A stretch of 27,537 nt of DNA, taken from NCBI GenBank assembly GCA_024196135.1, contig JAMQCK010000342.1, positions 1 to 27,537 on the forward strand, in the 5' to 3' direction. The translations under genes were made by a program, and so were the position numbers. The DNA comes from Pleurotus ostreatus/Saccharomyces cerevisiae fusant. Lineage: Eukaryota; Opisthokonta. Within the stretch, counting starts at the first letter, position 1. The number at the start of each line of letters is the position of its first letter. The notes beneath the pieces were generated by a model. The model was not told where the DNA came from, ran no database searches, and saw only the letters and a list, made by a program, of their open reading frames with translations. Shown here piece after piece: positions 6,218 through 17,925 of the stretch.

Positions 6218-7826
6218 CCCGTGTATTCTGGCCTGACTACCCACATCCCTGTCTCTCTGTCGCACGTATCAGCGACAGGTACGAAGCAATGGATCAACGC
6301 GCATGGAAAGACCCTCCCGTTGTGCTTAAAGGACATGAAAAGAAGGTCACGGCCGACGTTCATGCCTTTCAGCACCTCCTCGTCCCCTGCGATGTCGATG
6401 AGCACAGTGTCACGCCTTGGGCACCCGTACCAACTGGGAGTTGACCGGATACGTTCACGACGCACACCACCCGCGCCGCAAAGATCACTGGGGCATAGAA
6501 GCGCGCGACTGCAGAGTGGTACACGTAAGCCTTGGACGAGATGCGGGGAAGGTCCTCGTCGCGCAGATCTTCAGCTGCAATGTCGGGGTAGATCTGGTCA
6601 CGAAGGAAATGTCGGAGCAAGATGGGTAGCCTTGGCTGCCCAATATGCACTGCCAGCGCTTTGAGATCTCGCGGGTAAGTGCGCTCTACAGCCCAGTGAG
6701 TATGTAGCGCAATTGCCGCAGAGAAGTACGTACCTGGACGCTGCGCAAGATCGACAGAGGTGAGCGCGCGGGGGCCACGCCGACTGAGGGGCTCCGGTGG
6801 TCCATTGTCGTTGACATCCTCATCCTCGCTATCCTCGTCGGCGGGGTTCGATCTGATCGGTGCTGGGCGCACGCCATCTAGAACGCCTGCTGTGTACGAT
6901 GCCGTAGTACCAATCATCATGCCGCGCTTCTCGAGAAGAAGTCGTGCGGCATGCATCTTGTCAAGCCGAACATTGGTGGTGAGCATCTGCCCGAGTGCGT
7001 TGTACCGGTTAGATCGACGCCATGGCTCCTTGACGGCCTTGATGTGCTTCGAATCCGTGATTGAGGAGCAGAGCCCATTGGGAGAGCCGAACAGGAGGAT
7101 TGAAGGAATGTAGTGCTTGAGGGCGTGCTGGCGGGGTAGTGATATATCGACGCGGACTCCGACGTCCATGAAGATTTGCCGGTCCTCGTAGAAGCGGGAG
7201 AGGGCGTCGTCCATCTTGGCCAGCATCGTCGACGTGATAGCGTTTCTGCGTGCGAGGAAGCAGAAGTCGAGGTAAGCGGATAATGCCTTAACCATGCGCT
7301 CTGGGACGTGTCCAGCGATAGCAGCGATGTATATCTTCATCAGCGCTTTTGAGTCGTCACCGGTCCATTGAGCGAAGTCACGGCCCTCGGGGAAACGACG
7401 AAGCCCAAGGGAAGGATGGGACAGCAGCCAATCTACGTGATGTCAGTGTCCACACTCACGTGGCGTCAAAGAGCACATACCGTCGATCGATGTCATCGAG
7501 TATTTCCTTGGCCTTTGCTTCGCCATGAACAAGGACAAGGTAGTCCGATACCCATGCTACAAGGTGGTCCATGAAGGTGCCTTTGATGGCTTGATGGAGA
7601 GGGTCGGGAGAAAGGAGCTCGTGGATGTCCGCACGAGGAAACTCATGAGTGAAGGGCTGACCGTGTATTAGGAATCGGGAAGCAGATGAAGGGAGCGGTG
7701 TACGCACCACGATATCTTCGCGTATACCAAAGTCGGACCAAAGAGTGCCAGGGTCAAAGATCTTGACCAAGAAGTCCGTCTTCTGAGGCTCTAGGGCTCC
7801 GTAGAAAATGGGTCTGTTTCGAACAT
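6218..7826 (-). pseudogene. Plavaka-family transposase, C-terminal half, frameshifted
   Basis: Exons are about 7826-7708, 7656-7481 and 7432-6218, with introns of 51 nt (7657-7707) and 48 nt (7433-7480). Diagnostic family blocks appear in order: FPRADIHELLSPDPLHQ, IKGTF-DHL, ILDDIDRR, the GHVPERMV region, SLPRQHALKHYIPS, NGLCSSITDSKHIKAVKEPW, AVARFYAP, RERIRS-PSWYG, MSFKHNGRVFPCALI and GMWVVRPEY. Plavaka proteins are DDE-type cut-and-paste transposases of basidiomycetes. Two lesions break the frame: an extra base near 7407 between FP and GLRRFPEG, and a lost C in the run at 6490-6493 after FYAP. Upstream homology fades before 7826 and downstream homology ends at the foldback insertion. The copy cannot make active transposase unless both indels are assembly errors, and even then it is truncated at both ends. 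Confidence 0.85.
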
Positions 7827-11605: not shown

Positions 11606-11611
11606 TATAAA
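11606..11611 (+). promoter_or_regulatory. candidate TATA box of the H3-tail gene
   Basis: TATAAA occurs 62 bp upstream of the ATG at 11668, a spacing compatible with a fungal TATA promoter. No other control site is evident. Confidence 0.4.
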
Positions 11612-11667: not shown

Positions 11668-12352
11668 ATGCCTCGAACCAAGTGTACGGCGAGAGTGTCC
11701 GTCGGGGGAAAGGCTCCACGAAGTATGCATCCTACCATGCACACCCAATGACCTCATGCTGACTCATGAGTAGAGCAACTCTATCCGAAGTCTGTGATGA
11801 GGCCACAGCCAGTCCGAGAAAATGAGGAGTCGGGCGGCTCGGAGGACAAATCTAACGACAAGGTTAATGAGCTGCAGGGGGCGTTGGCCGACCTGAGCCT
11901 AGGACAAGATTCCATCCAAAGCGGTGCCAAGAACAACATGGTGGAACCTGACTCGCAGAGCCTTTCTGCCACCGCTTCAGCGCTTGATTCGGGGATACAC
12001 ACCTCACAACCTGTCATTCCGGCTGCCGAGATGATCCAGAAGTATGGTGATCAATCTCAGCCCATGAGTCAGCGATGGGCATCTGGTGAGCTTTAGTTTG
12101 CGACCGTACTTTGGTCCAGCTTCTGATCTCACTGGCCCGACTTCAGCAGCGGAAGGAGGACGCCGTTCCCCCAATGGCGTGAAGGTTCATCCTTCGGTCT
12201 TGCTGCCGGGGAGCGACATCCATCCAGTTCGTGCATGTACAGCTGGCCACTCCAGAAGTCCCACTGACGCTTTTCAGGTCAGGCCGACGGATGGACTTGC
12301 CGAAGACATCGCTGCTCTGCAGCCTTGCGATAACAAGCCTGACGTTGACTGA
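11668..12352 (+). CDS. protein with a histone H3 N-terminal tail and no histone fold
   Basis: Exons are 11668-11722, 11774-12085 and 12147-12352, joining to 573 nt (190 residues). Intron 1 is 51 nt (GTATGC..GAGTAG) and must be spliced because the unspliced frame stops; intron 2 is 61 nt (GTGAGC..TTCAG) with a CAGCAG tandem acceptor that could add or drop one codon. After Met, the first 20 residues are PRTKCTARVSVGGKAPRKQL. Sixteen match histone H3 residues 1-20, keeping R2, T3, K4, R8, S10, K14, R17 and K18, plus K23 beyond; K9 is Val. The KQL match is formed exactly across intron 1. The rest is Ser/Asp/Glu-rich and probably disordered (RENEESGGSEDKSNDK, ELQGALADLSLG), with no alpha-helical histone fold. 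Inference: it could engage H3-tail readers or modifiers, or be a relic of a captured H3 5' end. It is not an H3 gene. Confidence 0.72.
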
Positions 12353-16484: not shown

Positions 16485-17190
16485 AGAGAACAAGAACAAG
16501 GGGAAAACGGCGCGAGTGAAGCCTTTCGCTCGCGCGGCACGCAGAAGTGCGGATGGACGGCGAGGAAGTGGAGGGGGACCCCGCCATCCCCCTCCAAGCT
16601 TCGTGCACCCATTAGCGTCCAGAAACGCGTCCGCGGCGGTCACGTAGCAGGGAGAGGGTGTTGTAATGATTCCCACGTTCTCGGAACGCGCAGGGGACAT
16701 GAGGGCGAGGGCATCGCTCGAGAGTGAGAAGCCACTGAACGGGGGGACGCAGCGAGTGCGAGCTCGCGCACAACCTGGACCACTGGACCTCCCCGCCGTA
16801 TCCGCCCTTTTCCGCGGCATGAATACAATTGTGGGGCCAAAAAAACCCTGGCCCTCAGCCCTGCCTAGCAACGGACTGGGCAGAGGCAGTCGGGCGGCGG
16901 GTGCACGTAACGCGCTGCAAGTGCCAAACTGGCTCTGGCCTAGCTGTGTGCACAGCACGCCGGGTAAATGCATGGCGGCACCGCGCACATCCTGTACGGT
17001 GCGTGGAGTCGCCACGAAAGCGAGTCTCCACGTCCGCAGTGGAGGGGATGAGCAGGGGGCACGCGCTACCCACCATCTGCGTCATGTGCGATGCGTGCGT
17101 GCATGCACGACAGCCATACGCCTGTCAAGGGCTTGCTGAGGACGCGCTGAGCGCCATGGGCGAGACCCTTGCGCCCTCAGTTTTCATCCG
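16485..17190 (+). repeat. GC-rich subtelomeric duplication, copy 2
   Basis: Diverged direct copy of 15050-15735. A 222-codon minus-strand frame across it (17015-16347) starts at a non-ATG codon, is Pro/Ala/Arg-rich and runs through a poly-G tract, so I do not call it a gene. Confidence 0.5.
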
Positions 17191-17400
17191 AGGACGAATG
17201 AGCGGCCAGTGGAGCAATCTCACCCCGCATTTTCCGGCTCATTTTGCGTGCATGTCTCTCCCCTCCCACGACGAGGGAAGTATTCGTTGGTAGGCTTGTG
17301 GTATGCGGTGCTGAATCACGCACCTCCTGCTCGATGGTGATTGCGGACCAGGACTGCGAAAGGCAAGTCAGCGATTTGGGTTTCCCACAAACGCGGCGAA
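17105..17400 (+). repeat. 296-bp duplication, left (telomere-capped) copy
   Basis: Identical to 17518-17813 except at one base (C at 17203 against G at 17616). It ends in GCGGCGAA, where telomere repeats begin. Confidence 0.95.
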
Positions 17401-17497
17401 GGGTTAGGGTTAGGGTTAGGGTTAGGGTTAGGGTTAGGGTTAGGGTTAGGGTTAGGGTTAGGGTTAGGGTTAGGGTTAGGGTTAGGGTTAGGGTTAG
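17401..17497 (+). repeat. telomere repeat tract (TTAGGG)n
   Basis: About 16 perfect GGGTTA units, G-rich on the plus strand, so the sequence to the left ends here as a chromosome terminus would. No degenerate units are seen, unlike most old interstitial telomere tracts. Confidence 0.95.
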
Positions 17498-17517: not shown

Positions 17518-17813
17518 GCACGACAGCCATACGCCTGTCAAGGGCTTGCTGAGGACGCGCTGAGCGCCATGGGCGAGACCCTTGCGCCCTCAGTTTTCAT
17601 CCGAGGACGAATGAGGGGCCAGTGGAGCAATCTCACCCCGCATTTTCCGGCTCATTTTGCGTGCATGTCTCTCCCCTCCCACGACGAGGGAAGTATTCGT
17701 TGGTAGGCTTGTGGTATGCGGTGCTGAATCACGCACCTCCTGCTCGATGGTGATTGCGGACCAGGACTGCGAAAGGCAAGTCAGCGATTTGGGTTTCCCA
17801 CAAACGCGGCGAA
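17518..17813 (+). repeat. 296-bp duplication, right (uncapped) copy
   Basis: After GCGGCGAA this copy continues as GCGCCATCGG into non-repetitive sequence, in place of telomere repeats. Confidence 0.95.
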
Positions 17814-17925
17814 GCGCCATCGGCCGAGCGTTTGAAAATTGCAGCTTACCTCCAACATCCACCTCTCTGTCTGATTCCGACCTCCAGTTGCTGGACATCA
17901 CTCGACTTCTTCTCCTAAGTAGCAG

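Follow-up and report, generated by a model that had tools for sequence, protein, structure and literature searches.

Two Schizophyllum genes for free-standing proteins with a histone H3-like N-terminal tail: a candidate family of H3-tail mimics

Structure of the window gene and its annotated counterpart

The window analyzed here (27,537 bases) is the whole of contig C550 in the genome that we searched, which comprises 40.05 Mb in 1,277 contigs. The ATG at position 11668 opens a spliced frame on the forward strand, to which all coordinates of the gene given below refer, and the product of this frame begins MPRTKCTARVSVGGKAPRKQLYPK. Exon 1 (11668-11722) contains Met, the H3-tail-like residues 1-17 and the first base of the K18 codon. 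Intron 1 (11723-11773; 51 nt, GTATGC...GCTGACTCATGAGTAG) lies in phase 1 inside this codon, and its removal joins a to ag to restore K18. The remainder of K18 opens exon 2 (11774-12085), followed by Q, L, a variable stretch, an acidic linker (approximately residues 33-47), a weakly predicted helix (residues 46-62 in the annotated protein P0001) and a Ser/Gln-rich rest. A TATAAA box at 11606-11611, 62 nt before the ATG, stands in the context GGTATAAAT; the window contains four TATAAA in total when both strands are counted.

Over H3 residues 1-20, the window tail is identical to H3 at 16/20 positions, and at 17/23 over residues 1-23. The residues kept are R2, T3, K4, T6, A7, R8, S10, G12, G13, K14, A15, P16, R17, K18, Q19, L20 and K23, and the changes are A1P, Q5C, K9V, T11V, A21Y and T22P. 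A sequence-only reading of the same DNA had counted 16 matches among residues 1-20 plus K23, with K4, K14 and K18 kept and K9 replaced by Val, and our recomputation and residue comparison gave the same result.

P0001 is the annotated Schizophyllum commune protein FB107DRAFT_225125, which is 97% identical over 64% of the 190-aa query. It was the only protein among 193 candidates to match the 190-aa model at E ≤ 10, and its cluster has four member sequences. From this match we take the genome searched to be that of S. commune or a very close relative. Over 122 compared residues the two proteins show 4 differences, all of them past the first 21 (Met included), and the P0001 tail is that of the window protein except at H3 position 21 (C for Y). 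An excerpt of a published study describes S. commune as the most polymorphic species known (PMC9187340), so that 4 changes in 122 residues are suggestive of constraint, although the two genomes may be close kin. The protein search for tail-keeping orthologues that the sequence-only reading had suggested did recover such a relative, P0001, from another S. commune genome. Beyond S. commune, none of the 193 and 244 candidates matched further than the tail.

The first splice, which the sequence-only reading had placed so as to give KQL across a 51-nt intron, agrees with the annotated P0001 sequence and with the paralogue described below. The second splice (12085/12147) is less certain. Probable intron 2 (12086-12146; GTGAGC...TTCAG, phase 1) is read through in the P0001 annotation, which gives a protein of 125 aa ending ...WASGEL with a stop corresponding to 12094-12096. 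However, the last intron of the paralogue also begins with GTGAGC and is in phase 1, and the protein annotated in strain H4-8 fits its removal. Intron 2 and a 190-aa window product are therefore plausible from the sequence. Probable exon 3 (12147-12352, stop TGA at 12350-12352) would complete this product. It received support from no relative in the protein searches, and its GC fractions at the three codon positions (0.70, 0.55, 0.52) lack the pattern of exon 2 (0.60, 0.43, 0.61).

Beyond the tail, the protein had been described as Ser/acidic and devoid of a histone fold. The acidic character holds for residues 33-60 (net charge –5 in 28) and is mild for residues 61-190 (–5 in 130) of the 190-aa model. 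Zero Pfam families were detected in this model at E ≤ 0.1, and the single-sequence structure model of P0001, which is of low confidence, contains helices only at 46-62, 102-109 and 116-122, the first of these with a pLDDT of about 64-71 (model without alignment). As far as these models go, no histone fold is recognizable after the window tail, in agreement with the earlier description. The simple basic nuclear-localisation motif tested for was absent.

A second gene with the same tail and the same intron

We found a second tail gene at C813:57349, the product of which begins MARTKATARRSNGGTAPLKRLAG; this gene, and hence the family, is new here. Its orthologue in strain H4-8, P0002 (SCHCODRAFT_02630189, 100 aa), begins MARTKATARRSNGGTAPRKQLAG and was recovered by profile search, with a tail identical to H3 1-20 at 16/20 positions. 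Two introns of the C813 gene (L032 3405-3456 and 3490-3538) were modelled from DNA alone before P0002 was found, and P0002 agrees with both, whereas the third (L032 3722-3771) was picked in light of P0002. The resulting 99-aa model aligns end to end with P0002 with 8 substitutions and one gap, and the end of P0002, ATLRRSANA, fits the C813 DNA once the GTGAGC-starting phase 1 intron is removed.

Intron 1 of the C813 gene (52 nt) splits the codon for K18 in phase 1, at a position and in a phase identical to those of the window gene; by our inference, two independent introns would coincide in this way by chance about once in sixty positions. A TATAAA box at –54 has the same GGTATAAAT context as that of the window gene, so that both boxes lie 54-62 nt before the ATG; two of the four H3 genes carry TATATA at –96/–97, and the other two have neither box. 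Three of four changed tail positions (Q5, K9 and T11) are common to P0001 and P0002, for which the probability of at least three coinciding positions is about 0.013 (hypergeometric, calculated by hand). The core R2-T3-K4, T6-A7-R8, S10, G12-G13, A15-P16, K18 and L20 is kept in both tails, while the C813 paralogue is without K14 and K23. R17 and Q19 are present in three of four tail sequences; the exception is the C813 allele of this genome, in which L17 and R19 replace the R and Q of H4-8, and tail part 17-20 thus tolerates change and is not under strict constraint. In both proteins, a basic tail (+8 and +7) gives way to an acidic stretch (–5 each) and then to a predicted helix, which in P0002 spans residues 50-99 with block-mean pLDDT values of 80-97 in a single-sequence model.

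The two products are 33% identical overall and, beyond the tail, too diverged for paralogy to be proven by alignment alone. From the K18 phase 1 intron, the coinciding changes, the GGTATAAAT box and the basic-acidic-helix layout, we conclude that the window gene and the C813 gene, as judged by sequence, are paralogues. The family is defined here by an H3-like tail, the K18 phase 1 intron, an acidic linker followed by a helix, and a TATA promoter; both genes fit this definition, which was drawn from these two and is hence a description. A genome search with P0002 for a third member returned its own gene, two H3 genes and one match with an E value of 1.07. Segmental duplication was also considered, and a blastn comparison of the window with L032, L081 (C813) and L031 (C591) yielded nothing at E ≤ 0.01.

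The evidence for a real, conserved two-gene family is strong. The alternative that the window gene is a pseudogene or gene-model artefact, that is, a broken or mispredicted H3 gene, could appeal to the facts that it is known from predictions only and that its 3' end differs among models. It is nevertheless hardly credible, given an open frame with canonical splice sites that is kept in another annotated genome, a paralogue that aligns with the H4-8 protein over its whole length, and a 190-aa model in which the lack of any Pfam family means that no remnant of the histone fold is present.

Similarity to H3 by chance or by recent copying

We next compared the tail match with chance expectation. 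The probability of a 17/23 match anywhere in the six-frame genome is about 4e-7 (binomial, assuming 0.075 as the residue frequency). The pattern M-x-R-x-K-x-T-A-R, with the second residue limited to P, A, S or T, matched the genome 5 times and the reversed control 0 times, the five matches being three H3 genes, the window gene and its C813 paralogue. Sequence searches of the PDB yielded 129 matches at E ≤ 10 for P0001 (best E 3.3e-4) and 136 for P0002 (best E 7.8e-5), and the best 60 of the 129 and the best 60 of the 136 were all H3, CENP-A/Cse4 or H3 peptides. On the basis of the pattern control, the PDB matches and the binomial estimate, chance similarity to H3 was rejected. The large protein search with the single 190-aa query returned no H3 at E ≤ 10, which is to be expected of a match of only 20 residues in a very large set. 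A looser pattern, R/S-T-K-x-T-A-R/S, gave 32 matches versus 20 in the control, which is near background; among the 30 of these 32 that were read, eight were H3, the two mimics and C591. The loose pattern was accordingly rejected as a sign of many mimics.

The K18 intron is absent from all five H3/CENP-A-like genes examined (four H3 and one CENP-A-like). The H3 tail runs uninterrupted to about residue 29 in two H3 genes, two others are split at G12, with a further split after K4 in one of the two, and the putative CENP-A-like frame runs through the K18 region with no intron. Inheritance of the K18 intron from canonical H3 genes is not supported, as the H3 splits lie at G12, after K4 and near residue 30. 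The CENP-A-like gene (C458:100297-100554) contains an internal H3-tail stretch, RATARKSTGGRAPR.

The codons AGA (R8) and CAA (Q19), which had been taken as hints that the peptide rather than a recent DNA copy is conserved, are present in the window DNA. Between the window tail and the H3 gene on C608, 22/63 nucleotides differ, 14 of them at third positions (14/21), while 17/21 residues are kept (Met included). In neutral simulations (20,000 trials of random substitution, with the same number of changes), the residues kept averaged 8.5 and never exceeded 14. The C813 tail, compared with the same H3 gene, differs at 22/63 nucleotides (13 at third positions) and keeps 15/21 residues, again beyond all 20,000 simulations. 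By the NG86 method against H3, the window tail gave a dN of 0.21 and no computable dS, and the paralogue a dN of 0.27 and a dS of 1.68, values that over 21 codons are only indicative. Third codon positions are thus near saturation relative to the H3 of the genome while the peptide is kept, which is a strong argument against a recent H3 copy in neutral decay; this candidate was rejected, and the earlier hint was upheld. Because the residues kept exceed all neutral simulations in both genes, the tail peptide has been under selection since an old split from H3.

These results also bear on the possibility that the tail is a residual H3-derived N-terminus without a tail-specific function, an old H3 gene fragment in a gene that now works via its linker and helix. 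The C813 allele of this genome has indeed lost R17 and Q19, and none of the candidates searched from outside S. commune resembled the window protein past the tail. However, neutral decay leaves about 8.5 of 21 residues, compared with the 17 that remain here (15 in the paralogue), and the same core has been retained by both paralogues. We therefore consider such a residual tail unlikely.

Other proteins bearing H3-like tails

In the profile search, 48 of 244 candidates passed E ≤ 10, and 12 of the 48 were without a precomputed Pfam domain (P0001, P0002, P0004, P0010, P0011, P0016, P0026, P0028, P0040, P0042, P0045 and P0048). We read the sequences of all twelve, together with three histone-bearing ones. 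P0011, P0016, P0028, P0040, P0042 and P0045 look like H3 genes that were cut or mis-joined after the tail, whereas P0004, P0010 and P0048 look, from their sequences, like other free-standing tail proteins that have only the tail in common with the window protein. Like the window protein, P0004 (59 aa) and P0010 (61 aa) have a free-standing H3 tail, no histone Pfam domain and changes at K9 and T11. Their tails are changed at positions 6, 9 and 11 (in P0010 also at 5), with K9 replaced by D in P0004 and by E in P0010, and with T11V in both. They differ from the window protein in that the tail is followed by a SUMO-interaction-like motif (VITVDLT and IVIDLT, respectively), and the match spans 21-22% of the query, that is, the tail. 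P0004 additionally showed a weak sub-cut-off match to PF15715, the Pfam family of PAF15; a viral source of P0004 was considered, and none was found in viral contigs. In P0048 (138 residues), the H3 tail extends to about residue 28 with K9 kept and then gives way to an acidic non-histone stretch, SDADSDSGDES.

A tandem family at C591:77900-81100 (L031 2765-6165) has a repeated domain without a Pfam match above the cut-off, and each of its three domain copies is preceded by RTKKTAR, RTKQTAR or KTKQTAR. One of these motifs is an exact 11-residue copy of H3 (ARTKQTARKST), PARTKQTARKSTYSRPPRKP, and a further PRTKQTARRGG lies between. The single distant relative of this family that was found, at C758:111722, has no such motif. 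Loss of K9 is not universal in tail look-alikes, as P0048 and one C591 copy retain it.

Comparison with known systems and a proposed role

Histone mimicry has been documented for viral, bacterial and some animal proteins. The window protein shares with histone H3/CENP-A the tail residues 1-20 and differs from both in having an acidic linker and a helix in place of the histone fold, and in its K18 intron. The first part of the core shared by the two tails is what K4-end readers and enzymes hold in H3. We propose that the window gene is functional and belongs to a small family in Schizophyllum whose members, free-standing mimics of the H3 tail, dock on proteins recognizing the H3 tip and are insulated from K9 methylation, a reading to which we assign a probability of about 0.5. 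The mimic would be a short, largely disordered protein in which a short acidic linker joins the H3-like N-terminal tail to a helix, as the structure models suggest. Removal of Met would expose a (P/A)-R-T-K-x-T-A-R end, which could dock on proteins that recognize the H3 tip, whether unmodified or modified at K4, for instance PHD-type readers and K4 writers or erasers, and the A-P-R-K-Q-L part may lengthen the contact with the docked protein. The loss of K9 in both members would keep the mimic from H3K9 methylation and HP1 binding, while the linker and helix may bind a partner or dimerize. A ligand that engages the H3 tip yet cannot be methylated at K9 would suit a soluble competitor for K4-type readers, or an adaptor bringing an H3-tail reader to a target. 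In keeping with this proposal, the genome has 13 PHD matches, and two of the other free-standing tail proteins, P0004 and P0010, are likewise without K9. Expression and nuclear location are inferred, as is the mechanism as a whole, including docking, the partner and the choice between competition and recruitment.

The nearest precedent is vertebrate PAF15 (PCNA-associated factor, PF15715), which is set apart by its PCNA box. According to PMC7060239, this free-standing protein, whose N-terminus is H3-like, undergoes dual mono-ubiquitylation and is a binding partner of DNMT1, and its H3-like VRTK is bound by the PHD finger of UHRF1 as H3 ARTK is (Kd 2.2 micromolar for PAF15 vs 1.5 micromolar for H3). 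The window protein resembles PAF15 in being small and free-standing with an H3-like N-terminus. By analogy, the window protein might be a DNA-methylation maintenance factor, its tail bound by an SRA/PHD-type ligase and ubiquitylated at K14/K18/K23, with DNMT1 recruited via its replication-foci domain. The precedent itself, the retention of K14, K18 and K23 in the window tail, and the presence in the genome of 10 SRA matches on five contigs (C813, C134, C667, C403 and C367) and one partial DNMT1-RFD match are consistent with such a role. However, a pattern search found no PIP box, the PCNA-binding element of PAF15, in the window model, P0001 or P0002; the window tail is closer to H3 (16/20) than PAF15 is, and the window protein has no match to PF15715 at E ≤ 0.1. 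In addition, the 13 PHD matches in the genome lie on 12 contigs, none of which is an SRA contig, and the paralogue is without two of the three lysines. We regard this role as quite improbable.

The sequence-only reading had also suggested testing the peptide for binding to LSD1-type enzymes; such a partner would correspond to a recruiter whose free N-terminal Pro-Arg end enters the active site of an LSD1-type demethylase. SNAG-domain proteins (Snail, GFI1) have a short, H3-like N-terminal end that starts with Met-Pro-Arg and carries Phe at the place of H3 K4. The window protein shares the Met-Pro-Arg start, and H3 itself is an LSD1 substrate. However, the Phe of the MPRSFLV-type SNAG end is absent from the window MPRTKCT, which keeps K4 and most of the 20 H3 residues, and the paralogue begins Met-Ala-Arg. 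Moreover, each of the two SWIRM matches in the genome is preceded on its own strand by ZZ- and SANT-like frames, which, as judged by eye, is the Ada2 arrangement and not that of LSD1, although an intron-split LSD1 could be missed in this way. An LSD1-type partner was therefore not supported, and a SNAG-like recruiter appears very improbable.

Returning to the docking mimic, a fuller version can be put forward tentatively: the two genes may form a dedicated Schizophyllum mimic family in which K9 was lost under selection while the K4 and K18 neighbourhoods were kept, its products competing in soluble form for H3K4 readers or serving as their adaptors, and H3-tail mimicry may have been used more than once, since the unrelated C591 family carries its exact 11-residue H3 copy in the linker that precedes a repeated domain. 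Through such imitation tails, the fungus may engage the readers and modifiers of its real chromatin. If the proposal is true, a mushroom naturally modulates its H3-tail readers with an endogenous near-copy of the H3 tail that is long, free-standing and, in two paralogues, devoid of K9; the fungus is experimentally tractable, which opens the idea to direct test. Judged by titles and the beginnings of abstracts, none of the open-licence papers listed on H3-tail mimics in Agaricomycetes, fungi, S. commune or basidiomycetes describes such proteins. In the excerpt available of a study on H3K4me2 in S. commune, true H3 tails are compared without mention of mimic proteins (PMC8046757).

Genomic surroundings

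An SRA-domain match at C813:43857-44400 lies about 13 kb from the mimic gene at C813:57349. Contig pairs C412/C608, C232/C1203, C200/C1031 and C262/C873 gave identical or nearly identical matches, and the assembly may thus have retained both haplotypes in places. In the window, an open frame on the reverse strand (6369-7442) resembles basidiomycete Plavaka-type transposases in their C-terminal part; its one Pfam match, to an unrelated family, was below the cut-off. Sixteen TTAGGG repeats occupy 17400-17497 and abut a 20-base gap, past which (17518-17814) stands an exact second copy of the 297 bases that precede the repeats (17105-17401). This tract, about 5 kb from the mimic gene, is a telomere, an interstitial tract or a scaffolding error.
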